From an uncultured Lachnospiraceae bacterium (GTDB taxonomy: Bacteria > Bacillota > Clostridia > Lachnospirales > Lachnospiraceae), in assembly GCA_949155905.1 (NCBI GenBank), contig CASCWU010000016.1, positions 1-47,170 of the forward strand: DNA of 47,170 bases. The letters run 5' to 3'. Each line of letters opens with the position of its first letter. Position 1 is the first letter of the stretch. Made by a program: the position numbers and the translations under genes. The notes under the pieces were generated by a model. The model made no database searches. It saw only the letters and a list, made by a program, of their open reading frames with translations, and was not told the DNA's origin. This document shows positions 22,454-42,598 of the stretch, piece by piece.

Positions 22454-22527
22454 TCGAGGTGACAGGATTTGAACCTGCGACCTCTGCGTCCCGAACGCAG
22501 CGCTATACCAAACTTAGCCACACCTCG
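22454..22527 (-). tRNA. tRNA-Pro (anticodon CGG)
   Basis: A 74-base cloverleaf: acceptor CGAGGTG/CACCTCG with A discriminator, D stem GCTA/TAGC, anticodon stem CTGCG/CGCAG with loop TTCGGGA (anticodon CGG, decoding CCG), and T arm GCAGG-TTCAAAT-CCTGT. CCA is not encoded. It has its own promoter (22546-22573) and terminator. Confidence 0.95.
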
Positions 22528-22545
22528 TTTCCTTATGTACTAAAT

Positions 22546-22573
22546 ATTATATATGATTTAGGAAAAAAGTCAA
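22546..22573 (-). promoter_or_regulatory. Promoter of tRNA-Pro
   Basis: Minus strand TTGACT (22568-22573), a 16-base spacer and TATAAT (22546-22551), about 18 bases before the tRNA 5' end. The region from 22574 to 22784 otherwise holds a TATAAT at 22635-22640, possibly for the downstream kinase gene, and no gene. Confidence 0.75.
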
Positions 22574-22784
22574 GTGCTTTCTTGAACTTTTTTGTCATCC
22601 TTTTTTCGTTATAGCCAAATAGGGTGATTTGTAATATAATAGACCTCATAAGCTATGGCAAGTTTTACGAAAGAGGAACAAGGATAACAGCAATAGAGAA
22701 GGCTGGCATAGTGCCATAGAATGAAAGATAGAAATAACATAGTATCGCGGTATATATTTGGTACAAGAAGAAGGGAAGGTTTAT

Positions 22785-23777
22785 ATGGAAAGTACTACTA
22801 AAACAAAATTGACCAGAGAGGATCTGGAGTGTCTGGTTTGGAAGCAGTTCGGCTGTGGTCTGAAGGATTATAGCGAATCGGGGGAAGGGATGATGAATAG
22901 CATTTACCGTATCCGATTGGAGCGTCCTGTGCCTGATCAGGAGGTTATTTTGAAGGTGTCTTATTTTCCGGGAAAAGAGATTTTGACCTATGAGCGGGAA
23001 ATTATGCGTGCGGAGGTTTTGGTCTACCAGCTTTTGGAGGGCAAAGGAGTTCCGATTCCAAAGGTGTTATGTCATGATTTTTCTCATACGATGTTGGATG
23101 CAGATTATTTTTTTATGACTCCGGTGCTAGGAGTGTCCTGGAAATCGGTAAAAGAAGAACTTAGCTTAGAGGAAAAGGCGGAGTTAAAGAAGGAGTTGGG
23201 AAAATATCAGGCGATTTTACATTCGATAAGCGGAGAAGCGTTTGGCTACTATAAAGAGGGAAAGAGCGGTTTTGTCACCTGGGCAGAGGCGTTTTCTTCC
23301 ATGATTTGGGATATTACAGAGGATGGACGTATGCGGAGGGTTTCTCTTCCTTATGAGGAAATCAGAAGTGCTGTTTCAAAGCGGAAGGACTTGTTGAATG
23401 AGATTACAGTACCGCGGCTGGTAGACTTTGATTTGTGGGCAGGAAATGTTTTATTGGATAAAAAGAGCGGAGCCTGGTATATCAGCGCCATCATTGATTT
23501 TGAACGAGCGTTTTTCGGAGATCCATTTGCTGACTTTATTGCTGCCGTTGAACTGTATACAGAGATTGGTAGGGAGACACAGTTTCTGGAAGGATATCGG
23601 ACGGTGGATAAAGAATTTCAGGTGACAGAGCATGATAGAGAGCGAATGAAGTTGTATTCTTTATATTTGAATACGATTATGGCAGTAGAAACCTATCGCT
23701 TTGAAGAGAATTATGGGAAAATGATGCAGGAGTATTGCAGCCGGAATATTGATAAATTGTTAGGGGAATTAGCTTGA
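22785..23777 (+). CDS. Aminoglycoside phosphotransferase (APH)-family kinase
   Basis: A 330-residue protein of the APH/choline-kinase fold. The catalytic loop is LVDFDLWAGNVLLD (Brenner-type motif with Asp where His is usual) and the metal-binding Asp is in SAIIDFERAFFGDPFADF. The nucleotide-binding N-lobe contains VILKVSYFPG. Such proteins phosphorylate small molecules such as sugars, amino alcohols or antibiotics; the substrate is unknown and resistance should not be assumed. ATG at 22785 follows GGGAAGG. It is followed by a terminator at 23891. Confidence 0.85.
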   Translation: MESTTKTKLTREDLECLVWKQFGCGLKDYSESGEGMMNSIYRIRLERPVPDQEVILKVSYFPGKEILTYEREIMRAEVLVYQLLEGKGVPIPKVLCHDFSHTMLDADYFFMTPVLGVSWKSVKEELSLEEKAELKKELGKYQAILHSISGEAFGYYKEGKSGFVTWAEAFSSMIWDITEDGRMRRVSLPYEEIRSAVSKRKDLLNEITVPRLVDFDLWAGNVLLDKKSGAWYISAIIDFERAFFGDPFADFIAAVELYTEIGRETQFLEGYRTVDKEFQVTEHDRERMKLYSLYLNTIMAVETYRFEENYGKMMQEYCSRNIDKLLGELA

Positions 23778-23890
23778 GCAAATGCTATTTAGGAAATTTA
23801 GAAAAATTTTATCGCAAAAAATTACATTAAAAAATTGTTTTATTTTATACTGAAAAATACTTATTGCAAAAAATAACTATTATTTTTGAA

Positions 23891-23919
23891 AGAAGTTGCT
23901 GGCAGCAGCTTCTTTTTCT
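23891..23919 (+). terminator. Terminator after the APH-family gene
   Basis: AGAAGTTGCTG / CAGCAGCTTCT stem (one G-T pair) followed by TTTTTCT. Confidence 0.7.
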
Positions 23920-23971
23920 ATTTATACTATCCAAAAAATAATCATGTTATTCAGAAAGTGAGGAACCCATC

Positions 23972-25084
23972 ATGAAAAATGGAAAATTACAGGTAGCAGT
24001 CATCGGCTGCGGGGGAATTGCAAATTCCAAGCATTTCCCAGCTTTAACTTCTCAGACGGACAAATGCGAAATCGTCGCTTTTTGCGATATTATCGTAGAA
24101 CGAGCCGAAAAAGCGGCGAAAGAATACGGTACCCCAGATGCCAAGGTATACGAGGATTATCAGGAGCTTTTAAAGGATCCGGAAATTGACGTGGTACATG
24201 TCTGTACGCCGAACGTCGCGCATTGCCCGATTACGGTAGCGGCCTTTGAGGCAGGCAAGCATGTGCTGTGTGAAAAGCCGATGGCAGCGACAACGGAGGA
24301 TGCCGAGAAGATGATGGCTGCCTGGAGAAAATCCGGCAAGAAATTTACGATTGGCTATCAGAACCGGTTCCGTACCGACGCCCAGATGCTAAAGCGTGCT
24401 TGCGAGGAAGGAAAGCTAGGAGACATTTATTTTGCTAAGGCGCATGCGGTTAGAAGACGTGCTGTGCCGACCTGGGGCGTGTTCCCGGATAAGTCCAAGC
24501 AGGGCGGTGGGTCGTTGATTGATATCGGGACACACGCACTGGATATTACACTGTGGTGTATGGACAATTACAAGCCGGTTTCTGTGACCGGATCGGTATT
24601 TGAAAAGCTGGGGCATCTGCCGGAGGCAGCAGAAGGAAATATGTTCGGGCCATGGGATACGAACACCTTTGAGGTAGAGGATTCGGCCTTTGGCTTTATC
24701 AAAATGGAAGACGGCACAACGATTTTCCTGGAGTCGGCCTGGGCGTTAAATGTGAAAGATTCCAGAGAGGCCGCAACGACCCTTTGTGGGACAAGAGGCG
24801 GGGCGGAAATGGTTGGCGGGATGAGCGCCGAGGGCTACGATCTGGTCTTTAATCAGACGACTGGTGGAGTGCTGACCGAAGAGCATATTTCTGACGCCGG
24901 GGCAATCGCCTATTTTGAAGGCAGCACGGGCAGTACGCCAGAGGTCAAAGAATGTGAACAGTGGCTGACCGCTATTTTAGGGGATAAGGATCCGCTGGTA
25001 AAGCCAGAGCAGGCGTTTGTCGTGACACAGATTTTGGATAAGATTTACCAGTCTGCCGCAACCGGCAAGGAAGTAAAACTGTAA
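23972..25084 (+). CDS. Gfo/Idh/MocA oxidoreductase, DgpA-like
   Basis: A 370-residue dehydrogenase: N-terminal Rossmann fold (VAVIGCGGIANSKHFPAL) and C-terminal alpha/beta domain. The family's catalytic residues are visible: Lys102 in CEKPM, Asp184 and His188 in LIDIGTHALD. The family oxidises sugars or inositols with NAD(P). Because it directly precedes isomerase-fold and DUF6379 genes, the DgpA role is the best model: oxidising the sugar of a C-glycoside at C3 so the partner enzymes can eliminate the aglycone. Whether that holds for this protein is inferred. ATG follows GTGAGG. Confidence 0.85.
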   Translation: MKNGKLQVAVIGCGGIANSKHFPALTSQTDKCEIVAFCDIIVERAEKAAKEYGTPDAKVYEDYQELLKDPEIDVVHVCTPNVAHCPITVAAFEAGKHVLCEKPMAATTEDAEKMMAAWRKSGKKFTIGYQNRFRTDAQMLKRACEEGKLGDIYFAKAHAVRRRAVPTWGVFPDKSKQGGGSLIDIGTHALDITLWCMDNYKPVSVTGSVFEKLGHLPEAAEGNMFGPWDTNTFEVEDSAFGFIKMEDGTTIFLESAWALNVKDSREAATTLCGTRGGAEMVGGMSAEGYDLVFNQTTGGVLTEEHISDAGAIAYFEGSTGSTPEVKECEQWLTAILGDKDPLVKPEQAFVVTQILDKIYQSAATGKEVKL

Positions 25085-25128
25085 AATATGGATCACACAA
25101 TGTTAGCAAGAGGAAATTTCTGTGTATG

Positions 25129-25170
25129 TATAGTAAACGATAAAAACAAAGACTTTTGTCGTTCACTATA
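25129..25170 (+). promoter_or_regulatory. 17-bp inverted repeat between DgpA-like and DgpC-like genes
   Basis: The arms TATAGTAAACGATAAAA (25129-25145) and TTTTGTCGTTCACTATA (25154-25170) pair over 17 positions, with one T-G wobble and one A-C mismatch, around an 8-base loop. A related repeat precedes the lipoprotein of the second module (42599-42639), and a half copy is at 39270-39281. No U-tract follows, so a protein-binding operator or RNA processing hairpin is more likely than a terminator. Confidence 0.6.
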
Positions 25171-25221
25171 TCTGATAAAAAGGTAGTAAAATTAAAGAAG
25201 CAAAACAAAGGGGAAAAGGAT

Positions 25222-26274
25222 ATGGCAACAATCAAAACCTGTGTCAGCTTATACAGCTTGCAGGACGAATATTTAAACGGGCGCATGAGCCTGGCGGATA
25301 TTCTGTACTTTGTAAAGGAACAGGGTGCAGAGGGAATCGAAATCCTGCCGGATCAGATGTTAAAGGGAGCGCCGGAGGTTTCGGAGGAGACCGTGGCGGA
25401 ATGGAACCGCCTGCTTGCAGAAACTGGGTTAAAGCCGGTGGCGGCTGATGTATTTTTAAATACGAATCTTTATAAAAATCGTACCTTAACGCACAAAGAA
25501 AGTATTGATTTATTGATCAAGGAAATCAAACAGGCCGCAAGGCTGGGAATCCATCTGATCCGCCTGGTTTCGATGGTGCCGTACTGGGTGATCCGCCCGC
25601 TACTGCCGTACTGCGAAAAGTATGACGTGACGATTGCGTTAGAGGTACATGCAGCGATGGCCTTTGATATCCCAGAGACAAGGGCGTTTATCGAAGAAAT
25701 GAAGGCGGTCAATTCTCCGTATGTAGGACTGGTGATCGATACCGGAATTTTCTGCCGCCGTTTCCCACGGGTGGTTAGAGCCTATGAAACCTCGGTTGGG
25801 ACGAGCCCGGAGGTTTACGATTACCTGGATACCCTGTTTGAGGCAGGAAAGGATCTGCACCAGGCGATCCGCGATTATCAAAAGGAGCATCCAGGCGAGT
25901 ATCCGAAAGGACTGCAGGCCGCGATAAAAACACCACACGACCAGATGTCCGTACCGCTCTGCGATGGCTATGAGAACCTGCCATTTTCTGTACTGGACGA
26001 TTATCTGCCGTATATCAAACATATCCATTTCAAGCTTTTTGAAATGACGACGGAAGGAATCGAATCTGAGGATGGCGGAATGTCAGAATATTCTATCGAT
26101 TATAAGAGGCTACTCCAGTACCTACATGAGCATCAGTATGACGGCTATGTAGCAACAGAATACGAGGGCAACCGCTTTACCCTGGCCGGGAAGCCGATGG
26201 TGGAAAAGGAGCAGGTGGCAGCGCAGCAGGCATATATTCAGAAATGCCTGAAAGAGATTCAGGGGGTGCAGTAA
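25222..26274 (+). CDS. Sugar isomerase/epimerase-fold protein, DgpC-like C-glycoside deglycosidase alpha subunit
   Basis: A 350-residue TIM-barrel protein of the xylose-isomerase-like AP-endonuclease-2 superfamily. Putative metal ligands are Glu141 (ALEVH), Asp173 (VIDTG), His267 or His269 (KHIHFK) and Glu313 (ATEYEGN). His143 next to the first ligand fits the general base proposed for C-glycoside deglycosidases. It overlaps by one base with the DUF6379 gene (TAATG), the arrangement of known heteromeric DgpB-DgpC/CarB-CarC enzymes, which cleave the C-C bond of 3-oxo glycosides. Start chosen at ATG after AAGGGGAAAAGG. A plain sugar isomerase is the alternative. Confidence 0.85.
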   Translation: MATIKTCVSLYSLQDEYLNGRMSLADILYFVKEQGAEGIEILPDQMLKGAPEVSEETVAEWNRLLAETGLKPVAADVFLNTNLYKNRTLTHKESIDLLIKEIKQAARLGIHLIRLVSMVPYWVIRPLLPYCEKYDVTIALEVHAAMAFDIPETRAFIEEMKAVNSPYVGLVIDTGIFCRRFPRVVRAYETSVGTSPEVYDYLDTLFEAGKDLHQAIRDYQKEHPGEYPKGLQAAIKTPHDQMSVPLCDGYENLPFSVLDDYLPYIKHIHFKLFEMTTEGIESEDGGMSEYSIDYKRLLQYLHEHQYDGYVATEYEGNRFTLAGKPMVEKEQVAAQQAYIQKCLKEIQGVQ

Positions 26275-26666
26275 TGTTTGATAATAATGTATTTATTGAA
26301 AATTCATGTGTCAACGTGGAGGAAGCGGGACAGGTGACCGGCTATGAGCTGCAAACCCATATCACCTATTACCGGGGGATACCGCTTTCGATGATCGAAT
26401 ATATCCGGGTAGAGGTAGACGGCACAGAGGCAGATCCGGAAGCGATCCGTATTTCTACGGATCGGGAGGACTGGTTCACTTTGCCGGAAGCAGAAACCGT
26501 GACCAGCTATAAATGGGAATACGGCGAGCCGCTTTCTATCCGGGTACTGCAGGAGGGCGGCCTTGGCAAAGGAAGCCACCGGGTAAAGCTGACCGTGGCG
26601 ACGCGGACAGCGTATATTCCGGTGCCGCTAGAGGGAATCAAGGAAAGAGAGGTCATCATAGCATGA
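26274..26666 (+). CDS. DUF6379-type C-glycoside deglycosidase beta subunit, DgpB-like
   Basis: A 130-residue all-beta protein. The segments ITYYRGIPLSMIEYIRVEVDG, REDWFTL and VLQEGGLGKGSHRVKLTV followed by AYIPVP are the hallmarks of the small beta subunit that pairs with the isomerase-fold alpha subunit in gut-bacterial C-glycoside deglycosidases. The ATG overlaps the alpha-subunit stop with AGGGGG upstream, and its own stop overlaps the next ATG, so all are translationally coupled. No signal peptide. This small gene is the strongest single argument for a deglycosidase rather than a generic isomerase operon. Confidence 0.85.
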   Translation: MFDNNVFIENSCVNVEEAGQVTGYELQTHITYYRGIPLSMIEYIRVEVDGTEADPEAIRISTDREDWFTLPEAETVTSYKWEYGEPLSIRVLQEGGLGKGSHRVKLTVATRTAYIPVPLEGIKEREVIIA

Positions 26667-27646
26667 AAGTACTGGGGCTTTCGTTTGGCAGGAAGCAGGG
26701 CAATACCGATATTATGGTAAAAACCGCCCTGATGGAGTGTGAAAAGGCTGGGTGTGAGGTGCAGTTTATCCGGGTAGACGATTTGGATATTAAGCCATGT
26801 ACCGGTTGTATTTCCTGCGTGGTTGGGATGACGACCGGACGGGGAAAAGGCGGCTGCCCGATCCAGGATGATTTTGCAATTTTGGATGAAGCCCTGATGG
26901 AATGTGATGCCCTGGTGGTAGGCTCTCCGACTTATGTCCTGAGCCCAACCGGGCGGTTTAAGACGGTCTGCGACCGGATCGGGCCGTCCCACGACATTAC
27001 TTTCCGGAAAGCAACCTATGAGGAAGGGCTGGCAGCAGGAAAGGAAGCCAGCAAGCTTCCAGACACCCGAAGCTTTAAAAAACGGGTTGGTGCGTTGATT
27101 TCGGTAGGCGGAGCGATGACGAAAAACTGGCTGTCCTTTATGCTGCCGACGATGTATGAGTTTACGATGTCGATGGGCATTGACGTAATTGATATGCACG
27201 AATACCACGGAGCGATGGCCTATGAGCATGTGCTGGGCAACGAGCCGGAAATCGAGCGGATGAAGGAGATCGGGCGGCATATTGTAGAAGCGCTGCAGGC
27301 GGAAAGCGAGGAAGAGCGGATCCGGTTCCGCGGGGAGGATGAAGGCATCTGCCCGGTCTGCCATTGCGATATGCTGACCGTAGGAAAGGACAGGACGGGC
27401 GTGGAATGTCCAGTCTGCGGGATTGCAGGCAGGCTTTCTGTCGTAGACGGGAAAATAACCGTCGAGTTTTCCGAAGCAGAGCAGAAGCGTTCCAGGTTGC
27501 GTTGGGACGGGAAGCTGGAACATTCGACCGAGATTAAGACAAAGGCTGTAGGGCCGGGACAGATTCCAGATTTGAAGGAACGGCTTGCTGAGTACCAAAG
27601 ACTGACGGCTGGTTGGGATACGTTTCAGAGGGATACGAAGCAGTAG
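26663..27646 (+). CDS. Flavodoxin-fold NAD(P)H-dependent oxidoreductase with C-terminal zinc ribbon
   Basis: A 327-residue protein. Residues 1-215 are an NADPH-dependent FMN-reductase-like flavodoxin fold (SFGRKQGNTD phosphate loop; GSPTYVLSPTG flavin-ring loop) with the cluster CTGCISC (46-52). Residues 228-257 form a putative zinc ribbon, CPVCHC and CPVCG, separated by 14 residues. It starts inside the stop of the DUF6379 gene (ATGA). It may supply electrons or reduce a keto/aromatic product of the deglycosidase. A fusion of a flavodoxin-like reductase with a zinc ribbon is not common in my experience. Confidence 0.8.
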   Translation: MKVLGLSFGRKQGNTDIMVKTALMECEKAGCEVQFIRVDDLDIKPCTGCISCVVGMTTGRGKGGCPIQDDFAILDEALMECDALVVGSPTYVLSPTGRFKTVCDRIGPSHDITFRKATYEEGLAAGKEASKLPDTRSFKKRVGALISVGGAMTKNWLSFMLPTMYEFTMSMGIDVIDMHEYHGAMAYEHVLGNEPEIERMKEIGRHIVEALQAESEEERIRFRGEDEGICPVCHCDMLTVGKDRTGVECPVCGIAGRLSVVDGKITVEFSEAEQKRSRLRWDGKLEHSTEIKTKAVGPGQIPDLKERLAEYQRLTAGWDTFQRDTKQ

Positions 27647-27695
27647 GAATGAGAGTTCGGTGTGTTGTCGGGATTCTGATGGTGGTATGTGAATC

Positions 27696-27729
27696 TGTCC
27701 GGAGGGCAGGTCTCCCTGTCCTTCGGACA
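27696..27729 (+). terminator. Hairpin at the end of the deglycosidase operon
   Basis: TGTCCGGAGGGCAGG / CCTGTCCTTCGGACA pairs over 15 positions with two G-T pairs and a 4-base loop. The U-tract is weak (AAATAACA), so attenuation or processing is possible and read-through to the lipoprotein gene cannot be excluded. Confidence 0.5.
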
Positions 27730-27797
27730 AATAACATAGAAAATATACAAAAAAGGGAAATGTGAAAAAGAGGAAAGAAAAAGTGGAGGTAAACAAA

Positions 27798-29438
27798 ATG
27801 AGGCTTAGAGCCAGAAACAGTATGGTTTGCTTGTTGGTGATGGTATTATCGCTCTCTTTGTTGGCAGGCTGTAGTAAGAAGGAAGAACCGAAGCAGCAGG
27901 ACAATCAGGTAGAGGATCAAAAGGATTCCGAAAAACAGGATACGGCAGATGATTTTTTCCCTTTGGAGGAAACTGGGAAATTGTCTATGTGGCTGCTTTG
28001 GAGCAATGATTATATAGAAGATTATAACGACCTTCCAGCTGTCCAGAAGTTTGAACAGGATACGAATGTCCATGTAGATTACACCTCTGTTACGATAGGG
28101 GAAGCACAGGAAAAATTCGGCCTGATGATGGCTTCCGGGGATTATCCGGATATTGTAAAGCATGCAAATGCCTATTATGTAGGAGGACCGGTTCAGGGGG
28201 TGGAAGATGGCGTTTTTATTGATATGACAGATGTCGTAGAACAATATATGCCAAATTATAAGGCGTTGCGTGCCGGAAATGAGCAGGTTCGGAAGGAAAC
28301 CTGTGCGGACGATGGTTCACTGCCATGCCTTTGGACGTTGGCTACCAATAACGGAGTGATTGAAGGAGAACGAATGTGGCTTGGTATGACGGTACGCAAG
28401 GACTGGTTAGAGGAGCAGAACATGGAAGAACCACATACCCTGGAGCAATGGCATGATTATCTGGTGATGTGCCGGGATGTTTACGGCGCAGATGCTCCGT
28501 TGGTCGTAGAAAAAACAGGAGTAGATTTTATAGGCAGCTTTACGACGGCATTTGGGGTTTATCCAGGAATGTACCAGGAAAACGGTATAGTAAAATATGG
28601 GCCGTTAGAGGAAGGCTATCGGGAGTTTATTGAGTTGTTCCGGGACTGGTATGCAGAAGGCTTGATTGATAAGGATTTTGTAAGCTCTGGTGCAGCTGAT
28701 TTAGGAAATGGCGCTTATATTGCAACCGGCAGATCGGGCGCGACCTGTACAGTTTATGCCATGACGGCAGACTTTTTCCATCAGACTGGTTACACGCAGG
28801 AGGAGGATTTCTATTTGCTTCCGGTAACGGCTCCTGTCAGGACGGAAGGAGATACTCCTCAGACGGCCTATGATGCCAGAGGGCTTTTGAAGGAAAGCAT
28901 CAACATTACAAATAATTGCAAGAACGTAGAATTGGCGGCTCGTTGGCTGGATTATTTCTATGCAGCAGATACCTGGAAAACAGCAAGCTATGGAATTGAA
29001 GGAGAGAGCTATATAGAAAATGCGGATGGAAGCATTGATTTTACAGATTTGATTCTTCAGAACCCGGATGGCTATACTCCAAATGACGCAGTAGGGCTTT
29101 ATACGGTAGGAACTGCCGGAACGGGTCTGTATAACTGGGCGGCTGCACTGGCGACGGATAAGGAGTCTGAGCAGATTAAGGCACAATATAAGTGGAATGA
29201 GAATGCTTCTGATTTGATTTTACCGGCCAGCCTTTCTTTGACCTCAGAGGAAAGCACTACGTATAACCAGTATTTTACAGATTGTAAAACGATGGTAGAT
29301 GAAATGACTGTAAAATTTATTATGGGAACAGAGCCGATGGAGAATTATGACAACTTTGTAGAGTCTTTGAAGAGCTATGGTATCCAAAATTGTATCGACG
29401 CTTATCAGGCTGCCATGGATCGTTATAACAAGAGATAG
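27798..29438 (+). CDS. Extracellular solute-binding lipoprotein, LplA-like, module 1
   Basis: A 546-residue lipoprotein with signal peptide and lipobox LSLLAGC (Cys about 24), an acidic linker, then a type-1 ABC solute-binding fold (MWLLWSNDYIEDYNDLPAVQ; FGLMMASGDYPDIV; VRKDWLEEQNMEEP; IMGTEPMENYDNF). It would capture oligosaccharides or glycosides at the cell surface. LplA-type proteins usually come with LplB/YtcP-like permeases, but none is in this window, so the permease must be elsewhere or shared. ATG at 27798 follows GGAGG. Similar throughout to the lipoprotein at 42672-44378. The two are paralogues. Confidence 0.88.
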   Translation: MRLRARNSMVCLLVMVLSLSLLAGCSKKEEPKQQDNQVEDQKDSEKQDTADDFFPLEETGKLSMWLLWSNDYIEDYNDLPAVQKFEQDTNVHVDYTSVTIGEAQEKFGLMMASGDYPDIVKHANAYYVGGPVQGVEDGVFIDMTDVVEQYMPNYKALRAGNEQVRKETCADDGSLPCLWTLATNNGVIEGERMWLGMTVRKDWLEEQNMEEPHTLEQWHDYLVMCRDVYGADAPLVVEKTGVDFIGSFTTAFGVYPGMYQENGIVKYGPLEEGYREFIELFRDWYAEGLIDKDFVSSGAADLGNGAYIATGRSGATCTVYAMTADFFHQTGYTQEEDFYLLPVTAPVRTEGDTPQTAYDARGLLKESINITNNCKNVELAARWLDYFYAADTWKTASYGIEGESYIENADGSIDFTDLILQNPDGYTPNDAVGLYTVGTAGTGLYNWAAALATDKESEQIKAQYKWNENASDLILPASLSLTSEESTTYNQYFTDCKTMVDEMTVKFIMGTEPMENYDNFVESLKSYGIQNCIDAYQAAMDRYNKR

Positions 29439-29443
29439 GGAAT

Positions 29444-29497
29444 AAAACGGGCTGTGCTTGGAAGCTATCCGGATAACTTGGAGTACAGCCTGTTTTT
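29444..29497 (+). terminator. Terminator-like hairpin after lipoprotein 1
   Basis: AAAACGGGCTGT and ACAGCCTGTTTT pair over 12 positions (one G-T) with a 29-base loop and a T-tract. Confidence 0.55.
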
Positions 29498-29565
29498 ATA
29501 CACGGTGTTGTATAAGGAAGTTAAATCCAATAAGAAAAAACAAAAAGCAGAGGAGAGGATAAAAA

Positions 29566-31281
29566 ATGTCAAATAAATGTAGCCGTTCTCGTGTGACAGA
29601 AGGATTTGTCCATACAGATGGAACAAGGATGTTGAATGGAAAAGGAGAGCAGATTGTCCTGCGGGGCTGGGGAGCCGGGAACTGGACGAACCCGGAAGGC
29701 TTTATGGTAGGAGGGACGCAGCCTTTTGGAGGAGCCTATAACCAGGCGAAGCTGTTAGACCGTGCCAGATCCATGGAATGGCTGGTACAGGATTTGTGCG
29801 GGACAGAATATAACAAAAGATTCTGGCCGCAGTGGTACCGGAAGCATCTGGGGGAAGCGGATATTCAGGCAATGGCTGATCTGGGTTATAATTCTGTCCG
29901 TCTTGTTTTAAACGCAGCAGCGTTTTTATATGAAGAGCCAGGTATTACCTTTAATGAGGACAGCTTTGCGATGCTGGACGATGTATTGGATTGGTGCGAG
30001 AAATACCAGGTATATGCCATCTTAGATATGCACGCAGCGCCAGGAGGGCAGAGCTGCGGCGGCTGTGACAACGCCAGAGATAATGTTCCCCATCTGTTTT
30101 TAGATGAAGAGAGCTGGGAACGTGCTATCCGGCTCTGGGAGGAGTTTGCAAGGCGTTATCAGGATCGTTGGATTGTAGCAGGCTATGATCTTTTAAACGA
30201 GCCGTTAAACGCAAAGGAATGGTTTCATCTGACACCAAAGCTCCAGGAATTCTATGAGGAATGTATTCGCCGTATCCGTGCTATTGATCGGAATCATATG
30301 CTCACCCTGGAGGGAACCTTGTGGGCGACGCAGGTGTCTGTTTTTGACCGTGATTACGATCCGGAGTGCCATAACTGGTGTATTCATATCCATAATTATG
30401 GTTATACGCCGGAAATCCGGGAGGTTCAGGCTATGCTGGAGCGCTCCAGGGAGCTGAATGTCCCGATCTGGATGGGGGAGGGCGGCTCAAATAATACCGC
30501 TAATACTATTTTTTTGGAAATGCTGGCGCAGGAAGGAATTGGCTTTGCACTATGGTGCTGGAAAACGGCTGAAAAAACCAACGGAGAGGCTTCGGATACA
30601 AGAGATTGCGCTCCGGCGGAATATCAGCTTCCGGAGGGCTGGCAGCAGGTGTTTGAGTATGCCGACCATGGCGGGCCGAAGCCAGGATATGAAAAAAGCC
30701 AACGGATATTTGATGAACTGTTGGAAAATCTGGATTATAAAAAATGCCGCCATCCGGAAGTACGGCATCAGTATGTACTTCGTCAGCCTGGAATTACCAT
30801 ACCGGGAGCTGGTTATGACCATGGGAAGGCAGGAGAAGCCTTTCTGGGACATTGGGAGGGTGGAAATGCGTTTGAGTATCGGTTAGGAGATCGGGTGAAG
30901 CTGGTAGTAAAACCTGGCGGAAAACGCCAAGGACCGCAGGAAATGAAAGGGTTTGTCAATTCCTCTCCATTTGAAAAAATTCCGGCGGAGGAGGAGCTTT
31001 GGCCAGAGCTTTCTACAGGTGAATTTGTGCATTATACGATCCGGGACGTAAAAGAGGACTGTCCAGTAACGCTTCAGGTGAGAGCCCTGTGTGATTCGGT
31101 ATTGATAGTGTCAGTAGGCGGACAGGAAAGACGTCTGGAGCTTTCTAAAGCCTCCGGCCAGGAGACAGGAAAGGTGGAAGCCTTGACCTTGCCACAGGGA
31201 GAAGCCTATGCAGTTCGAGTAGAGGTAGAAAAAGGAACCATACAAATTGCATCGGTGGAGTTTGGAGCGAAACGGGATTAA
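29566..31281 (+). CDS. GH5 glycoside hydrolase, cytoplasmic, module 1
   Basis: A 571-residue enzyme. Residues ~30-370 are a GH5 TIM barrel: acid/base Glu212 in DLLNEP and nucleophile Glu305 in WMGEGG, with LDMHAAPGGQ and HIHNYG on the other strands. Residues ~390-571 form a beta-sandwich likely related to CBM-type domains. There is no signal peptide, so the substrate is imported; exo-beta-glucosidase-like activity is plausible, specificity unknown. It is separated from the lipoprotein by a terminator-like hairpin. Paralogue at 44523-46235 with the same two-domain layout. Confidence 0.88.
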   Translation: MSNKCSRSRVTEGFVHTDGTRMLNGKGEQIVLRGWGAGNWTNPEGFMVGGTQPFGGAYNQAKLLDRARSMEWLVQDLCGTEYNKRFWPQWYRKHLGEADIQAMADLGYNSVRLVLNAAAFLYEEPGITFNEDSFAMLDDVLDWCEKYQVYAILDMHAAPGGQSCGGCDNARDNVPHLFLDEESWERAIRLWEEFARRYQDRWIVAGYDLLNEPLNAKEWFHLTPKLQEFYEECIRRIRAIDRNHMLTLEGTLWATQVSVFDRDYDPECHNWCIHIHNYGYTPEIREVQAMLERSRELNVPIWMGEGGSNNTANTIFLEMLAQEGIGFALWCWKTAEKTNGEASDTRDCAPAEYQLPEGWQQVFEYADHGGPKPGYEKSQRIFDELLENLDYKKCRHPEVRHQYVLRQPGITIPGAGYDHGKAGEAFLGHWEGGNAFEYRLGDRVKLVVKPGGKRQGPQEMKGFVNSSPFEKIPAEEELWPELSTGEFVHYTIRDVKEDCPVTLQVRALCDSVLIVSVGGQERRLELSKASGQETGKVEALTLPQGEAYAVRVEVEKGTIQIASVEFGAKRD

Positions 31282-31301
31282 GAAGGAGAAAAAGGCGCAT
31301 T

Positions 31302-32939
31302 ATGCAGAAAAAGATAAAAAATCCGATCATTCCAGGTTTTTATCCAGATCCGACTATTTGTCGGGTAGGGGAGGATTTTTACCTGGCCTGTTCCAGTTTT
31401 GAACTCTGTCCGGGAATACCGGTTTTTCACAGCAAGGATTTGGCGCATTGGGAGCAGATTGGAGATGCTATGACGCCGGAAAACGGCTTCCATGTAGAAA
31501 AAAACAGCGGCAACGGGGGCATCATGGCACCGACCCTGCGTTATCATCGTGGATTGTTTTATATCATCAATACCAATTATAGTGATAAAGGTAATTATAT
31601 CATTACGGCGGAGCATGCAGAGGGACCCTGGTCAGAGCCGCACTGGCTGACCGATGTTCCGGGAATTGACGCGTCTCTTTTCTTTGATGAGGATGGAGAA
31701 GCTTATATTCTGGGAACTGGAAACGTCTGGGAGAATGGAGCTGGAGAAAAAGAGCGGGGAATATGGCTGGCACGTTTTGACATAGAGCGGTTTTGCTTGT
31801 CCGGAAATCCGGTAACGATTTTTAACAGTGCGCTTCGGGTGGGAGCTTCTCCGGAATCACCGCATCTGTACCATGTCGGGGAATATTATTATTTGGTCAT
31901 TGCAGAAGGAGGGACAGAGCATTATCATGCTGTTATGGTAGCACGAAGTAAGGAGCTATTTGGCTTTTACGAAGGGAATCCAGCGAACCCTGTTCTGACG
32001 CATCGGCATTTGGGCTTTCATTGCCCTATTACAAATGTGGGGCATGCGGATTTGGTGGAACTGGCAGATGGGAGCTGGTATGCGGTTGTGTTGGCCTCCA
32101 GGTTGATAAATGGATTTTATAAAAATTTAGGGAGAGAAACCTTTCTCTGTCCGGTAGTCTGGGAGCGTGGCTGGCCGCTTTTCAGTCCGAAAACCGGGCG
32201 TCTGGAGGAGGAATATGAGGCACCGGAAAGCCTGCCGTGGACAGAATATCCACCGGAGAAAAAGCGGGAGGAATTTGATCAGGAAAGGCTGGGGTTCGGC
32301 TGGAGCTTTTGGGGGACACCTTATAAAGACCTGTATCAGATTCAGAATTCCAGGTTGAAGCTGCGTTGTATCCGTCAATCCCTGGCAGAGGAGCTTCAGC
32401 CTATGAGCTACAAAAAGGAAGCCTCCAAAGATAGATTTGTTTCTTTTTTGGCTAGACGGCAGCGGGAAATAAATGTAACTATTACCTGTCAGATGACGTT
32501 TACACCGCAGCAGAATGAAAGCGCTGGGCTGGCAGTAGTACAGGCGATGAACCATCAATATCATCTGGAAAGAGCCCTACAGGGGGGAAAGCAGGTAGTT
32601 CGACTGGTGCTGGTGACGGCAGAGTTTGCAGTTCCGCCTTATATGCCAGGATTTGAGAGCAAAACAAGCTGCGAGGTACTGGCCGAAGCTCTGTGGGACG
32701 AGCCAGATATTGTTCTGCAAATGAAACTAGAGCAGGAGCGCTTTACAGTAAGCTACGGGAAGGAAAAAGAAAACTTGACCGAGCTTTGTATCGCGGATGG
32801 AGGAAAAATCAATCCGGAAATCGTCGGCTGTATGACAGGGACGATGCTTGGAATGTATGCGACCGGGAATGGGACGGACAGTGAGAACAGTGCAGAATTT
32901 GACTGGTTTGAAATTTTGCCTTGTGAAAGAGACTTGTGA
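31302..32939 (+). CDS. GH43 family beta-xylosidase / alpha-arabinofuranosidase-like enzyme
   Basis: A 545-residue cytoplasmic enzyme: N-terminal five-bladed propeller with the GH43 triad Asp16 (PDPTIC; base), Asp123 (GIDASLFFD; modulator) and Glu185 (ASPESPHLY; acid), then a C-terminal beta-sandwich (about 330-545) as in XynB-type xylosidases. Typical products are xylose or arabinose from short oligosaccharides or glycoside side chains. It begins 20 bases after the GH5 stop with AAGGAG upstream. Suitable for trimming pentoses from plant glycosides (inference). Confidence 0.9.
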   Translation: MQKKIKNPIIPGFYPDPTICRVGEDFYLACSSFELCPGIPVFHSKDLAHWEQIGDAMTPENGFHVEKNSGNGGIMAPTLRYHRGLFYIINTNYSDKGNYIITAEHAEGPWSEPHWLTDVPGIDASLFFDEDGEAYILGTGNVWENGAGEKERGIWLARFDIERFCLSGNPVTIFNSALRVGASPESPHLYHVGEYYYLVIAEGGTEHYHAVMVARSKELFGFYEGNPANPVLTHRHLGFHCPITNVGHADLVELADGSWYAVVLASRLINGFYKNLGRETFLCPVVWERGWPLFSPKTGRLEEEYEAPESLPWTEYPPEKKREEFDQERLGFGWSFWGTPYKDLYQIQNSRLKLRCIRQSLAEELQPMSYKKEASKDRFVSFLARRQREINVTITCQMTFTPQQNESAGLAVVQAMNHQYHLERALQGGKQVVRLVLVTAEFAVPPYMPGFESKTSCEVLAEALWDEPDIVLQMKLEQERFTVSYGKEKENLTELCIADGGKINPEIVGCMTGTMLGMYATGNGTDSENSAEFDWFEILPCERDL

Positions 32940-33020
32940 TATGTTTTAGAGGAATAAAAAAAGAGAAAACAGATAGCAGGAGCGGATAGAGAAACTGTCC
33001 GCTCCTTTGTTTTTGCAAGG

Positions 33021-33475
33021 AAACGAGCCAAGTAGCTATGCTTGCATTGATATCTCTATCATGTTTTGCTCCACAAATTGGACATATCCATTCCCTTATT
33101 GATAAATCTTTTGTATTAACACTTTGATAACCACAATTAGAACACAGCTGGCTGCTGGCATAGAAAGTATCTATTTTGATGTACTGCCTCCCATTCCACA
33201 ACGCCTTATATTCTAACTGTCTTGTTAATTCGTACCACGACACATCTGGTATTTGTTATCTTTTCATGGCATAATGCTATTTTCTTATTATCTTTGGATT
33301 CTCGTATTTCTTCCCATCTGATATAATGCATAAATATTTGATTCCTAAATCTAAACCTATATTTTGCCTGTTTGCGGTAGTTTTCCATGTTCCCATGACG
33401 CAAGTATAACACAAACCGCCACTTTTGGCTACCTTAATCCATCGTCTAAAGCCAGTGGGATTGCGATAGCCATTC
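33021..33475 (-). pseudogene. Degenerate tnpB (IS200/IS605 family)
   Basis: On the minus strand, fragments in two frames match TnpB: an upstream part with RuvC-I NIGLDLGIKYLCIISDGKKY that ends at a TAG (33278-33280), then a C-terminal part SWYELTRQLEYKALWNGRQY with the zinc ribbon CSNCGY...CPICGAKHDRD and RuvC-III. The middle region holding the RuvC-II Glu is missing between them. The N-terminus and the element ends are not recognisable. It fills the gap between the GH43 and AraC-GH39 genes. Confidence 0.75.
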
Positions 33476-33634
33476 TTTCAGAGTTACGAGTAAGATTTTA
33501 TAAAAGATAGGATATCACAAAATAAGAAAAATTACTATCTGTTTTTTGCCCGATATATTGTTGCGTTTTTTTGTGGGTTGTTTTAAAATAATTTAGTAAT
33601 ACTAGGAAAAGAAAAAGGAGTGACCCCCACAAGC

Positions 33635-36031
33635 ATGACCACTACATCAACCAAAAAAGATCCTCCGGCTAAACTGGAACTATTGTCTGGAATCGAGGAA
33701 CCCCGCCACGAGCATGCAGAAATCGAGCTGCTTTATGTGGCAGAGGGAACCTGCGACGTCTCCTATCGGAAGGAGCGCTACCGCCTGGAGCAGGAGGATG
33801 TTCTGTTAATCAATACCGAGCGGGAGCACAGCGTTTCCGTAGACGGGGATTCCCTCATCTGTAAGCTTTCCTATCCGTACTACGAGATCTGCCGGGAGTT
33901 AGAGGAGGACTATCTACTGTTCCGCTGCAACAGCATAATTGAGCATGGCTTTCCGTATGATCAGTTACGCAGGCAGATCCGGGAAGTGCTGCTGGAGTAT
34001 GCCAGCAACAGCAGCAACCAGCACTACCGTCTGCATGGCCTATATCAGCTGTTGCTTTCCTGCCTGTTGGACAATTTTAAAATGACGAGTATCAGCGTGG
34101 AAAACAGCAGGGAGTGGGAGGACGACCAGAAGCTGGCTGTGATCAAGGGCTATATCCACGAGCATTACCAGGAGGGCGGGAACCTGTCTGCCCTGGCGGA
34201 GCGGCTGTACTTGTCGCCTTCTTCGCTGTCCCGCTATTTTAAAAAGATGACCGGAGAGGCGTTCAGCAAATACATCCGCAAGCTCCGGCTGCAAAAGGTG
34301 GTAGAGCAGCTTGTGACGACGGATTTTTCTGTGACCCATATCGCAATCGAGCAGGGCTACAGCACACCTTCTGCGCTCAATAAGGATTTTAAGGAATATT
34401 TTCAGATGACGCCGAAGGAATACCGGGAAATGTACCAGACAAAGGCGCTGCCGAAGCAGAAAAAGGAGCAAGGACAGAGCCAGAAGCAGCGTCTGAGAAC
34501 TCTTTTACATATCCGGGAGGAGCAGGAGGAGGCGGAGAAGGATTATGAGGCCATTCATGCCGATTGCTCCAGGCAGGAGCCTTATAAAAAATGGGTGACA
34601 AGGATTATGAATGTCGGGGAAGCACGTGTCTTAAAGGACGCTCAGATGCAGCAGCATATCCTGCTGTTAAAGGAAAAGCTGCATATCGAATATGTGCGAA
34701 TCTGGTCGTTGTTTACCCAGGATATGATGATCGTAGGGGAGCAGAAGGGAGAGTATAATTTCCACCGGCTCGACAGTATTTTGGATTTTTGCGTCAGTCA
34801 TGGGCTAAAGCCGTTTTTGGATATGGGGCAGCGGACGAACCTGGCGATGTCCAGTGAGAAAAAGTACCTGTATAAGCGGGAGGACGGGATTGAGTTTGCA
34901 TCTGAGGAGGAATGGGTAGAGCTGACGGAACGGTTTTTCCGTCATATCTGGAAGCGCTACGGGGAGGAAACCATCAGCAGATGGATCATTGAGTTTACCT
35001 TTTTTCTCAATGCCAGGCCGTATTATATGGCCAATGTATTCAGTGCCCGCCGGGTATGGGAGCTGGGCTATCAAATTGTCAAAAAATATATTCCAAATGG
35101 AAAAATCGCTGGACCGGGGCTTCTGGCCGGGCTGGATGAGGAACTGATGAGGAAGGTGATGGATTCCTTTTTCAGTACGTCCTGCCTGCCGGATATTTTT
35201 ACCTCCTACAACTTTCCGTACCGGCCAACTACGGAGGAATATCAGTATCAGAAGATAAATGCAGATGATTTTTTAAGACGCCAGATCCAGACGATCCGGG
35301 GAGAGTTAGATCGGCAGGGCTATCAGGGAGAATATTATATCACCGACTGGAACAACAGCCTGGCGAACCGGAATTATATCCAGGATAGCTGTTACCGAGG
35401 AACCTTCCTGTTAAAAAATATTTTGGAGCATTATGAGAGTGTCGGGGAAATGGGGATCTGGTATGCATCGGATCTGCTGAATTTTTATTATGATTCAACA
35501 AGGCTGCTTTCCGGGAGCGGGGGGCTGGTGTCGAAGGACGGGATTTGCAAGCCGGTGTTTTATGCGCTGCTGTTTATCAGTACCATCGGACAGTACCGGG
35601 TGGCTCAGGGGGAAAATTTTATCATTACCAAGGACAGCGACGAGAAGTTTTATATCCTGGTGTTCCACAACAAAAGCCTGAACTATTATTATTATCTTTC
35701 CGAGGAGGACGCCTATAAGCCGGACGAAGTGACGAGGCTGTTCCAGAACCAGGACAGCCTGAAGCTTTCCGTAGAGCTAAGGAACCTGAAGCTGGACGGA
35801 AGCTACACCATCCGGGAAAAAATCGTCAACGAAGAGGCCGGGAACGTGCTGGGAAAGTGGAAGGAACTGGGCTTTGGACGGGATTTGAACTATGAGGATA
35901 TCGAGTATTTAAAGCAGACCACCATCCCAGAGGTGAAAATTGAGCATGTTCAGGTAGAGAAAAAACGGCTGCAGCTTACAATGGTATTGGCACCGCATGA
36001 AATGAGATGGATCGAGATCATAAAGGATTAG
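33635..36031 (+). CDS. AraC-family regulator fused to a GH39-like domain
   Basis: A 798-residue cytoplasmic protein: cupin-like sensor (about 20-75), AraC double helix-turn-helix (about 165-270; NLSALAERLYLSPSSLSRYFKK and IAIEQGYSTPSALNKDFKEYF), linker, and a GH39-like TIM barrel with C-terminal beta domain (about 320-798). The GH39 acid/base position, normally in a WNEP-type motif, reads EFTFFLN, and the nucleophile region reads ITDWNNS with Asp. The barrel is therefore probably a non-catalytic sugar sensor. A GTG at 33620 abuts AAGGAG; ATG 33635 (14 bases away) is preferred. It likely controls the flanking glycosidase modules. Confidence 0.85.
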   Translation: MTTTSTKKDPPAKLELLSGIEEPRHEHAEIELLYVAEGTCDVSYRKERYRLEQEDVLLINTEREHSVSVDGDSLICKLSYPYYEICRELEEDYLLFRCNSIIEHGFPYDQLRRQIREVLLEYASNSSNQHYRLHGLYQLLLSCLLDNFKMTSISVENSREWEDDQKLAVIKGYIHEHYQEGGNLSALAERLYLSPSSLSRYFKKMTGEAFSKYIRKLRLQKVVEQLVTTDFSVTHIAIEQGYSTPSALNKDFKEYFQMTPKEYREMYQTKALPKQKKEQGQSQKQRLRTLLHIREEQEEAEKDYEAIHADCSRQEPYKKWVTRIMNVGEARVLKDAQMQQHILLLKEKLHIEYVRIWSLFTQDMMIVGEQKGEYNFHRLDSILDFCVSHGLKPFLDMGQRTNLAMSSEKKYLYKREDGIEFASEEEWVELTERFFRHIWKRYGEETISRWIIEFTFFLNARPYYMANVFSARRVWELGYQIVKKYIPNGKIAGPGLLAGLDEELMRKVMDSFFSTSCLPDIFTSYNFPYRPTTEEYQYQKINADDFLRRQIQTIRGELDRQGYQGEYYITDWNNSLANRNYIQDSCYRGTFLLKNILEHYESVGEMGIWYASDLLNFYYDSTRLLSGSGGLVSKDGICKPVFYALLFISTIGQYRVAQGENFIITKDSDEKFYILVFHNKSLNYYYYLSEEDAYKPDEVTRLFQNQDSLKLSVELRNLKLDGSYTIREKIVNEEAGNVLGKWKELGFGRDLNYEDIEYLKQTTIPEVKIEHVQVEKKRLQLTMVLAPHEMRWIEIIKD

Positions 36032-36281: not shown

Positions 36282-36941
36282 TCAAATATGAGTACGTCGG
36301 ATAAGCTCTGCCTTTAAGGCCGATCCCTGGAATAAAACCAGAGCGGCCAGCAGGATAACGCTGAAGCTGACGCAGATGACGGAAGGATATACCATCCACA
36401 GCCACTGGCAGAGCAGCGGAATCAGCGGGAAAAAGCCTGCGAACAGGGAAATCCCTAAAGAGAGCAGATAATCCGAAGCTCGCAGGTGTAGCGCCCATGC
36501 CGTTGCCACGACGGCGATCTGCATACAGGGAATTAGGATCGGGAGGACAAAATTGATCGACCAGCCGCGGGAGCCGGTGCGCCAGTCCCATACCAAAAGC
36601 AGCACAGAGACGACGGCAAGCAGCCAGACAATGGCCTTGAGCGGATTGCGCCGTTTGGAAAGGGCGATGCCGATCACCAGCCATACGCTGGCCAGCCCTG
36701 CCGCCACAAACAAAAACCACCAGCCGCTTTCCGGGAAGCAGTAGTTGATGGCGATACACACAGCCAGGGCAGCGACCGTAAGGAAAAGAGCCATCCGTAT
36801 GATGAGTCCGTAAGGCGTCCTAGCCTCCTCAATCACCGGATAGGCGTCCTCCTCCGGTGTTCCGGCCAGCTCCCCCTGGCAGAGAGGGCAGCGTTTCCCG
36901 GAGCCGGATACGTGGATACCACATTTTTCACAATAAAACAT
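36282..36941 (-). CDS. Zinc-ribbon multi-pass membrane protein (DUF6320-like)
   Basis: A 219-residue protein with an N-terminal zinc ribbon (MFYCEKCG..KRCPLCQGE; Cys 4, 7, 18, 21) and about six membrane helices from residue 45 to 205. The function is unknown. It starts 2 bases after the acyltransferase stop, so translation is coupled; the same three-gene order (hydrolase, acyltransferase, this protein) is what I recall from Clostridia. A role presenting or exporting an acylated product is possible but not shown. Confidence 0.75.
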   Translation of the reverse strand: MFYCEKCGIHVSGSGKRCPLCQGELAGTPEEDAYPVIEEARTPYGLIIRMALFLTVAALAVCIAINYCFPESGWWFLFVAAGLASVWLVIGIALSKRRNPLKAIVWLLAVVSVLLLVWDWRTGSRGWSINFVLPILIPCMQIAVVATAWALHLRASDYLLSLGISLFAGFFPLIPLLCQWLWMVYPSVICVSFSVILLAALVLFQGSALKAELIRRTHI

Positions 36942-36943
36942 AC

Positions 36944-38236
36944 CTAATTCACCTCACTCTCGGAAGGTAGGTTGGTCGTCAATATGACATCTATTCCCAT
37001 TTGTGACAGCTTACGGAAAAAAATACGCTCTGTTTCACAGGATCGGAACGGACTGGCAAAGCTGACGATATATTGCCCGTGAAAGGAGCAGGCGCAGGCC
37101 TGCAGCATTCCAGCGCTTGTAAAAACGTTGAACAGATGGATATGCCGATTCATTTCCTCTGGCATGGACACTCTTCCGATATTGGAGAAGGAGGCTGTGA
37201 TACCACGGGAGGTCAGCCAGTTCGCGATACGCAGGACGATATCCTTGATCGGGAGAGGCACCAGACGGAGCGGGATGCTGTGTTCCAGCGCACAAAGCGT
37301 ATTCATTTGCTCCCGCATTCGTTCCTCGGTCAGGTTGGCTTGGAAGCTACGTTTGACTTCTGCTAAAACCGATTCCAGGCTGCCGTCTCCTTTGCCAAAA
37401 TCATAGCCGACATTTATCGTAGCAAAAAAGTTTCTGGCAGATTCCGATGGGAAATAATTCCGCAGGTTGACCGGAATGGTAATCACTACGGGCTTTTTTC
37501 GATCTCGTACCCGCATCCCTTCCTGGAGGGCAAGGAGAAAAACAGCCGCCATCAGCTCGGTCAGAGTGGCTCCCTTTGCACGCGCACAGGCAAGGATGTC
37601 CTCTAACGGCATTCGACCCTCCAAAATAGCAAGGTGATTTCTGGGAAGGCGTTCTCCTTTTAACTGGTAGGCGGCAGGGGAGGAGCCAGGGAGACGTCTG
37701 GCCGGCTTTTCGTAATATTTCTGGAAGCTGTCGGTCTGCCGCTGGGACTGGGAAGCATCGTAGGGCAGAGCTGGGAAGGGCTTTGGAAACTCGTCCGGGT
37801 GCCGCAGGAGCAAATATTCATAAACGAGGGTGCAGAGGAAATTCAGCGCACCGGTGCCGTCTGTGAGGGCGTGATAAACCTCCAGGCTGATTCGCTTCCG
37901 GTAGTAGAGGACGCGGAATAAGAGGCTGCGGCGGATAGAAGGATAAATCGGGCAGCAGGGCGGCGAATCCTCCTCACGGATCTTGGCAGGAAGTGTGCTG
38001 TCCTCCAGATAATACCAGAACCAGCCGCGTTTCATGACAGAACGGTACATCGGGAAACGTTCGATGGTTTTATCCAGCGCTTTCTGTAAAAGCGGAGGAG
38101 AGACTTCCTCCTGCAGCTCACAGACAAAGCGGAATACCTTGGAATCATGCGATGATCCGGTAGACGGGAAAATCTTTGCCGCATTGTCTAACGTCCACCA
38201 GGACGGTACGTTTTTATTCGTTCGATTCTTCATCAT
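36944..38236 (-). CDS. Condensation/acyltransferase-fold protein (alcohol acetyltransferase-like)
   Basis: A 430-residue protein of the CoA-dependent acyltransferase/condensation superfamily. The catalytic motif HxxxDG is present as HALTDG (His122-Gly127), and a later segment FSNIGR resembles the DFGWG-region strand. Such enzymes join an acyl group to an alcohol or amine. Its start (ATGATG) overlaps the hydrolase stop by 23 bases. With the adjacent hydrolase it may make and break an ester; the substrates are unknown. Confidence 0.8.
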   Translation of the reverse strand: MMKNRTNKNVPSWWTLDNAAKIFPSTGSSHDSKVFRFVCELQEEVSPPLLQKALDKTIERFPMYRSVMKRGWFWYYLEDSTLPAKIREEDSPPCCPIYPSIRRSLLFRVLYYRKRISLEVYHALTDGTGALNFLCTLVYEYLLLRHPDEFPKPFPALPYDASQSQRQTDSFQKYYEKPARRLPGSSPAAYQLKGERLPRNHLAILEGRMPLEDILACARAKGATLTELMAAVFLLALQEGMRVRDRKKPVVITIPVNLRNYFPSESARNFFATINVGYDFGKGDGSLESVLAEVKRSFQANLTEERMREQMNTLCALEHSIPLRLVPLPIKDIVLRIANWLTSRGITASFSNIGRVSMPEEMNRHIHLFNVFTSAGMLQACACSFHGQYIVSFASPFRSCETERIFFRKLSQMGIDVILTTNLPSESEVN

Positions 38237-39158
38237 TCTTCTCCAAAAAACGGTTGATTATGTCATAGGTACGTTTGACGAGGGAAAAACGGAGCGGGAG
38301 CGAAAAATACCCGTGGAGGGCGTCAGGGATACGGTGAAGCTCTACTCGCCCGCCTGCTTCGGCCAGTTTTTGTCCATAGGCCTCGCCCTCGTCTCGCAGC
38401 GGACAGTACTCGGCGGTGATCAGCAGGGTATCTGGCTGCCTGGTAAAGTCCGAGGCATTTAAAGGGGCAAAGTAAGGATTTTCCAGATCCTCCTCGGAGG
38501 CGCGGTAAAGGGCAAGGTACTCCTCGACCCGCTTTGACGTCAGCAGATAGCCGGTTCCGTTTTCCCGTACAGAAGGATAAGGAGAGCTTTCCGAATGGTC
38601 GCTGCCCAGAGCCGGATAAATCAAAATCTGCCGTTTCGGGGAAAAGTCTCCTCGATCTCTGGCCATCAGGGAAACCGCCGCTGCCAGGTTTCCTCCAGCG
38701 CTGTCGCCGATCAGGACGATACGATCCGGCTGCAATCCCAACAGGCCAGCATGGGAAAACAGCTCACGCGAGGCAGCGTAGCAATCCTCCGGCGCGGCAG
38801 GAAAATGGTGTTCTGGTGCCAGTCGGTAATCGACCGAAGCGACCAGACAGCCGGTCGCCGCTGCCATATCCGAGCAAACGCCGTCATAGCTGTCTACCGT
38901 TCCTGTCACCCAGCCGCCGCCGTGGAAGAAAAGCAGCAGAAAGTCCTTCGTAGGCTCGGCAGGCTCAAACAGGCGCACTGGAACCAGGTGGCCGCCGCTG
39001 TCCACCGAATGCTCCCACATATGGTAAAGAGAAGAATTTTTCAGGCGGCGAGAAACCAGCTTGTGGAATTCCCGTTCCATCAGGTAGGTTTTTTTGAGAT
39101 CCAGTTCCGGGTAGGACAGGATACTGAGCGCTGCCCGCATTGCTTTGTTGATTGCCAT
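38214..39158 (-). CDS. Alpha/beta hydrolase, hormone-sensitive-lipase family
   Basis: A 314-residue esterase: oxyanion motif HGGGW (79-83), nucleophile Ser153 in GDSAGGN, Asp in PLRDEGEAY and His in ALHGYFS. These are the hallmarks of HSL/BioH-like bacterial carboxylesterases, which prefer short acyl or acetyl esters. First gene of the minus-strand operon hydrolase-acyltransferase-membrane protein. An extended -10 (TGCTATAAT, 39203-39208) lies about 45 bases upstream. Confidence 0.88.
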   Translation of the reverse strand: MAINKAMRAALSILSYPELDLKKTYLMEREFHKLVSRRLKNSSLYHMWEHSVDSGGHLVPVRLFEPAEPTKDFLLLFFHGGGWVTGTVDSYDGVCSDMAAATGCLVASVDYRLAPEHHFPAAPEDCYAASRELFSHAGLLGLQPDRIVLIGDSAGGNLAAAVSLMARDRGDFSPKRQILIYPALGSDHSESSPYPSVRENGTGYLLTSKRVEEYLALYRASEEDLENPYFAPLNASDFTRQPDTLLITAEYCPLRDEGEAYGQKLAEAGGRVELHRIPDALHGYFSLPLRFSLVKRTYDIINRFLEKNDEESNE

Positions 39159-42590: not shown

Positions 42591-42598
42591 TCTGATTC

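Follow-up and report, generated by a model that had tools for sequence, protein, structure and literature searches.

Organization of the gene cluster

A 47,170-nucleotide stretch of DNA from an uncultured Lachnospiraceae bacterium, likely a gut bacterium (GenBank assembly GCA_949155905.1, contig CASCWU010000016.1, positions 1 to 47,170; referred to as the window herein), carries four head-to-tail genes on the plus strand that we designate A (23972-25084), C (25222-26274), B (26274-26666) and F (26663-27646). The first three encode proteins of the DgpA, DgpC and DgpB types and the fourth a relative of FLR, a flavone-reducing enzyme of Flavonifractor plautii. All four open reading frames (ORFs) lie where an initial annotation of the sequence had placed them, and the overlapping start and stop codons that it had described for the last three genes were also found. 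The stop codon of C and the start codon of B have one base in common (TAATG, 26272-26276), and the stop codon of B and the start codon of F have four (ATGA, 26663-26666), an arrangement typical of translational coupling. The ATG of C at 25222 is preceded by a purine stretch (GGGG/AAGG), which makes an upstream TTG start (25156), and with it a longer protein, less probable.

A consensus scan revealed a terminator-like hairpin on the plus strand between an upstream APH-family gene and A (23888-23916), with a 13-pair stem followed by a T-rich tail. It marks a possible upstream edge of the operon and is individually weak, with 10 terminator-like sites in 22500-29700 versus 6.3 expected. Fifty bases behind F, between this gene and a downstream gene for a solute-binding protein, there is a second hairpin on the plus strand with 15 pairs and no T-run (27696-27729). 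The fold of 27685-27745 has an energy of -31.1 kcal/mol versus a shuffle mean of -12.2 (z = -7.4), and the hairpin is possibly the downstream operon edge or an RNA processing site. Its 14-base left arm has no further perfect match in the genome, and the idea that the hairpin is a repeated element was rejected, as approximate matches were no more numerous than those of a control pattern. Since hairpins lie upstream of A and behind F, the unit is likely A-C-B-F, and we consider these genes likely to form one operon.

A, C and B resemble characterised C-glycoside deglycosylation proteins

Gene A encodes a 370-residue Gfo/Idh/MocA oxidoreductase, as initially annotated; in a Pfam profile search it matched PF01408 (116 bits) and PF02894. 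Its closest entry in the PDB is DgpA of strain PUE (7xr9; 63.4% identity over 361 residues, 524 bits, best E-value 1.6e-156), and DgpA1 (9m3d) scores 484 bits. A combines the domains of the DgpA class with close identity to a characterised DgpA and a position adjoining deglycosidase genes, and its predicted role is to oxidise the sugar of the C-glycoside at the 3'' position. Another DgpA-like gene, with 57% identity to A, is present on contig 24 of the genome, where no C, B or F cluster member adjoins it.

Gene B encodes 130 residues that match PF19906, "C-glycoside deglycosidase beta subunit" (CGDB; 122.6 bits against a cut-off of 27.6, E-value 8.6e-36), a family that we take to be the former DUF6379, to which B had been assigned at the outset. 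It directly adjoins gene C, whose 350-residue product is the putative alpha subunit and adopts, again as first proposed, a xylose isomerase-like TIM barrel (PF01261, 81 bits). The closest PDB chains for both are those of the 'P581a' complex 9m3b: DgpC1 for C (9m3b_A; 61.9% identity over 331 residues, 428 bits, best E-value 1.6e-127), in keeping with the DgpC assignment originally suggested, and DgpB1 for B (9m3b_B; 61.4% over 127 residues, 152 bits, best E-value 6.9e-44). Both are more distant from their PUE counterparts (DgpBC, 7bvr), at 94 bits for C and 52 bits for B. The pairing of B with C has indirect support from the solved 9m3b pair and from a natural fusion, 8qrz_A, one chain in which residues 14-118 match B and residues 143-331 match C.

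In AgCGD2, Glu147, Asp179, His269, Lys271 and Glu305 are described as metal ligands and His149 and Glu307 as catalytic residues, the latter corresponding to His143 and Glu301 of PUE DgpC (Mori et al. 2021, PMC8563793). We transferred these roles to PUE numbering by a constant offset of six, taken from the two residues named in both proteins. In a HMMER alignment, E141, D173, H263, K265, E299, H143 and E301 of PUE DgpC pair with E141, D173, H269, K271, E313, H143 and E315 of C (7/7), so that all metal ligands are kept. We therefore predict E141, D173, H269, K271 and E313 as the metal ligands of C, H143 as its base and E315 as helper. Three of the four residues singled out in the initial annotation, Glu141, Asp173 and Glu313, agree with this set; the fourth, His267, does not, as the aligned ligand is His269, two residues on, with Lys271 beside it.

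The three protein kinds and the metal and catalytic residues of C are thus like those of the dgpABC system of strain PUE, which is known as one operon; in the present locus F comes after B. Every sequence test that we ran backed the original C-glycoside deglycosidase interpretation of the trio, and A, C and B very probably constitute a C-glycoside deglycosylation system. The locus is the sole C-deglycosidase candidate found in the genome, since this genome, rated 93.8% complete, holds one CGDB match; it also holds one match to F. With genes for a solute-binding protein, GH5, GH43 and an AraC-GH39 protein lying behind F (27762-36031), the trio could in principle act on an O-glycoside or on a polysaccharide-derived sugar instead. 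The CGDB match and the complete C-deglycosidase residue set argue against such a role, as does the hairpin that separates F from these genes, and we regard it as very unlikely.

F is a distant relative of the flavone-reducing enzyme FLR

Gene F encodes 327 residues that Pfam places only in the broad FMN_red family (PF03358, 61.9 bits), as might suit a general reductase or redox helper using flavin mononucleotide (FMN) that is chemically unrelated to the aglycone and present by chance or for the redox balance of A. Two results make this extremely unlikely. The predicted fold of F, based on alignment A1 (P0004 together with 75 homologues out of 240 listed), matches FLR over its full length (PDB 7d38, 7d39, 7d3a and 7d3b), versus at most 199 residues for the flavodoxin-fold structures ranked next, and the linkage of F to CGDB genes described below is far above chance.

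Like FLR, F has a flavodoxin-like FMN domain, a C-terminal domain and a tail. The initial annotation, a flavodoxin fold with a zinc ribbon, thus did not go far enough, and the zinc-ribbon cysteines fall in the part of F that aligns with the C-terminal domain of FLR. Their spacing was misread as CxxC-x14-CxxC; it is C230-x2-C233-x15-C249-x2-C252. A further four cysteines, C46, C49, C52 and C65, lie N-terminally and had been overlooked. We dropped the reading of F as a plain zinc-ribbon reductase, since FLR has the same eight cysteines and the same C-terminal region. The N-terminal motif, Cys-x2-Cys-x2-Cys-x12-Cys, is invariant in all 57 FLR-like rows of our alignment, and resembles the motif that archaeal iron-sulfur flavoproteins carry. 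Neither zinc nor iron turned up in a word search of the available text of the FLR paper.

FLR loses activity when G106, W149, H271 or I275 is replaced by alanine, and all four residues are present in F as G107, W156, H287 and I291. They are kept in 57/57 rows, except for G107, which differs in one. FLR Ser147 is Ala in F; the S147A mutant of FLR is described as slightly more active. The residue table and the tree cover 57 rows, omitting locus L022 and F-like ORFs of fewer than 270 residues, and the rows on the FLR and F sides were hand-picked from two homologue lists (best 120 of 963 and best 120 of 713).

As to function, FLR is reported to reduce flavones and flavonols and to act neither on the isoflavone daidzein nor on anthocyanidins (PMC7862272). 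The enzyme does not take electrons directly from NAD(P)H, and the FLR paper leaves the identity of its electron donor open. From its fold, its residues and its conserved linkage, we predict, with somewhat more confidence than doubt, that F reduces the flavone at C2=C3 once it has been released.

Genes for F relatives are linked to CGDB genes across genomes

Among 397 genomes of the same family, that of the window included, 33 carry a CGDB gene above the cut-off (34 at E 1e-3, so that one sub-cut-off genome is omitted) and 16 an F relative of at least 50% identity. All 16 of the latter also carry CGDB (Fisher p = 8.7e-20). In 12 of the 16 the two genes share a strand and are no more than 12 kb apart, and in nine they are no more than 3 kb apart, when random placement would link 0.38 of 16. 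Linkage declines in weaker relatives of F, to 7/25 at 37-49% identity and 4/54 at 30-36%. These counts keep 95 F matches and omit three partial ones, with at most five candidates scored per genome. In another sample, drawn from the order and comprising 392 genomes, seven match F at E 1e-60. The five of these that were new all carry CGDB, directly beside F in two, at 10-11 kb in two and at 14 kb in one.

Related loci point the same way. In a tblastn table, 16 of the 27 loci found with C hold F, 13 of them in the exact order C-B-F; F is thus an added partner, as the initial annotation had it, though not one confined to the present locus. The 27 loci overlap in part with the 397 genomes and are not independent of them (the F proteins of L025 and L051 are identical, as are those of L037 and L058). 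Most of the loci come from Lachnospiraceae or other Clostridia. Those of Trichococcus, Sedimentibacter and Listeria have no F, and since seven other loci likewise have none, the presence of F tracks neither taxonomy nor habitat neatly.

Two variants of the arrangement were seen. In Eubacterium plexicaudatum ASF492 (L042:10001-11804) the C match is split over two frames, A and F remain and tblastn reported no B match; we describe this locus as a decaying copy or a sequencing fault. Loci L066, L067 and L069 are of another CGDB cluster type, in which two protein clusters lie between the lyase and an F-like gene. One is represented by an FAD_binding_2 flavoprotein (L067:5449-6900), the other by a 705-residue iron-sulfur/pyridine-nucleotide flavoprotein (L069:7909-10026) that is a candidate electron donor for FLR-type reductases.

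The association of F with deglycosidase genes sets the present locus apart from F. plautii FLR, and also from Clostridium butyricum, in which a predicted FLR gene lies in an operon-like row of flavonoid genes, flr-fcr-phy, that joins FLR to aglycone ring cleavage (PMC11868195). Catenibacillus scindens and C. decagia possess both C-deglycosidases and FLR; in the available text FLR is not described as adjoining dgpBC, and the dgpA genes lie apart from dgpBC (PMC11170127).

Proposed pathway and alternatives

We propose that this likely operon, comprising DgpA-, DgpC- and DgpB-type genes and an FLR relative, probably converts a flavone C-glycoside to the free flavone and then to the flavanone. Given its 63% identity to DgpA, A would oxidise C3 of the C-linked sugar. 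The C/B complex, with a divalent metal, would then deprotonate C2'' and allow cleavage of the aryl C-C bond, releasing the aglycone and the enone sugar 1,5-anhydro-hex-1-en-3-ulose. This second step is suggested by 61-62% identity and the complete aligned set of metal and catalytic residues, and is transferred from the mechanism of C2''-deprotonation and C-C cleavage, with its enone product, proposed in PMC8563793. Finally F, as an FMN protein, would reduce the freed flavone across C2=C3 by transfer of two electrons and two protons. As FLR acts on flavones and flavonols and not on daidzein, F points to flavone C-glycosides as substrates, and homoorientin, isovitexin, orientin and vitexin appear better first substrates than puerarin or aloin.

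Several observations weigh against the flavone part of this proposal. Identity between F and FLR is 33% over 295 aligned residues with HMMER, 29% with MAFFT and 25-28% in structural alignments, to be read beside the BLASTP cut-off for FLR of at least 30% identity over 80% given for Yang 2021. Only 7/17 FLR positions checked are conserved in F, and several FMN or dimer contacts differ. In the 57-row tree, one long, fully supported branch of 2.38 changes per column splits the F rows from the F. plautii FLR rows, a gap that is partly due to sampling, as rows were chosen near F or FLR, intermediates are thin and the bootstrap is not settled; F. plautii FLR is the one assayed FLR in this tree, that of Clostridium ljungdahlii being absent. 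Since the conserved residues are near-universal on both the F and FLR sides, they mark the family and not the substrate, and one F. plautii FLR paralogue is reported to have no apigenin activity (Goris 2021, PMC8398226, citing Yang 2021). In four of the 16 close F relatives the CGDB gene is over 12 kb away or on another contig, and F is absent from the stretch covered in 11 of the 27 related loci, some being cut by contig ends. Last, the MFS transporter and T5, a TIM-barrel protein, of related-locus clusters were not found in the window, and the genome has no match to the DAPG_hydrolase family (PF18089), a weak negative as control genomes were silent as well. Phloretin hydrolase is a member of that family. 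Judged by these sequence comparisons, F is not a close orthologue of FLR. Even FLRs with assay data differ widely from one another: the protein of C. butyricum shares 70% identity with the FLR assayed from C. ljungdahlii and 28% with that of F. plautii (PMC11868195).

The distance between F and FLR in the tree would also suit a system for other aromatic C-glycosides, such as those of isoflavones, xanthones, anthraquinones or dihydrochalcones, with F reducing that aglycone or the intact glycoside. C-glycoside deglycosidases are described as broad toward the aglycone (PMC8563793), and A is closest to the DgpA of strain PUE, which is known for puerarin. We treat this as a minor but real possibility, as the FLR fold and key residues are kept in F and FLR leaves daidzein and anthocyanidins untouched.

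The main alternative for the chemistry of F is that it reduces C1=C2 of the enone sugar and not the flavone, thereby aiding sugar recovery. All such operons would generate the enone sugar, the product proposed in PMC8563793, and it could plausibly serve an ene-reductase as substrate; the position of F directly behind B and its sequence distance from FLR are consistent with this. Related loci commonly hold a fuller set, in varying order: an AraC/GH39 regulator, an MFS transporter, A, C, B, F, T5, a second dehydrogenase (A') and a ROK kinase. T5 or A' is kept in 8/11 loci without F, as in 13/16 with F; these counts rest on neighbourhood maps with crude ORF calls, in which even the B and F genes of the window were missed, the tblastn table being the safer count. 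Assuming that T5 and A' serve the sugar branch, F looks dispensable for it. As the FLR residues that touch the flat aglycone (H271 and I275) are also kept in F, we think reduction of the enone sugar quite unlikely, and retain the freed flavone as the predicted substrate.

A bolder version of the flavone pathway has three parts, which are unlikely to hold jointly. F may found a distinct FLR-type subfamily for C-glycoside breakdown, coupled to the C-C lyase. The aglycone, or even the enone sugar, might be reduced as it is released, pulling oxidation and lysis forward. The two invariant cysteine tetrads might hold a metal or iron-sulfur site feeding FMN, which would explain the failure of FLR to use NAD(P)H.

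Genes surrounding the cluster

The A'-type Gfo/Idh/MocA dehydrogenase of the window (41517-42590, plus strand; PF01408 and PF22725) lies 14 kb downstream of the cluster. It falls in one single-linkage protein cluster with the A' of 31 other loci, and this type adjoins A-C-B-F in many related loci; whether it belongs to the system is uncertain. For T5, the closest match that the genome offers has 31% identity and is on another contig.

AraC regulators with a C-terminal GH39 domain, which may sense the glycoside, adjoin many C-deglycosylation operons (protein cluster 8, 14 related loci; one representative was scanned). The AraC-GH39 protein of the window (33620-36031) has the same domains as cluster 8, yet falls outside it. 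The set at 41517-46235, which comprises the Gfo/Idh/MocA dehydrogenase, a solute-binding protein and GH5, resembles the solute-binding protein/GH5 pair at 27762-31281, possibly as a duplication. On the minus strand, 36282-39158 encodes DUF6320, an alcohol-acetyltransferase-like protein and an alpha/beta hydrolase in a row.

Implications

C-glycosyl flavones are common in plant food and resistant to ordinary glycosidases. The DgpA/C/B trio is already known; what is added here is an FLR-type gene whose start codon overlaps the stop codon of B, and the recurrence of this linkage. In titles, openings of abstracts and passages of the open-access literature we found no description of an FLR-type gene beside dgpBC, nor of a recurrent linkage between them. 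Aglycone release and flavone reduction have been characterised separately, each with its own enzymes. A recurrent joint gene set would let genomes predict which bacteria turn a C-glycosyl flavone straight into a flavanone, and would give a substrate class, flavone and not isoflavone, for many DgpABC-like clusters. It would also offer genes with which to ask which donor feeds electrons to FLR-type enzymes.

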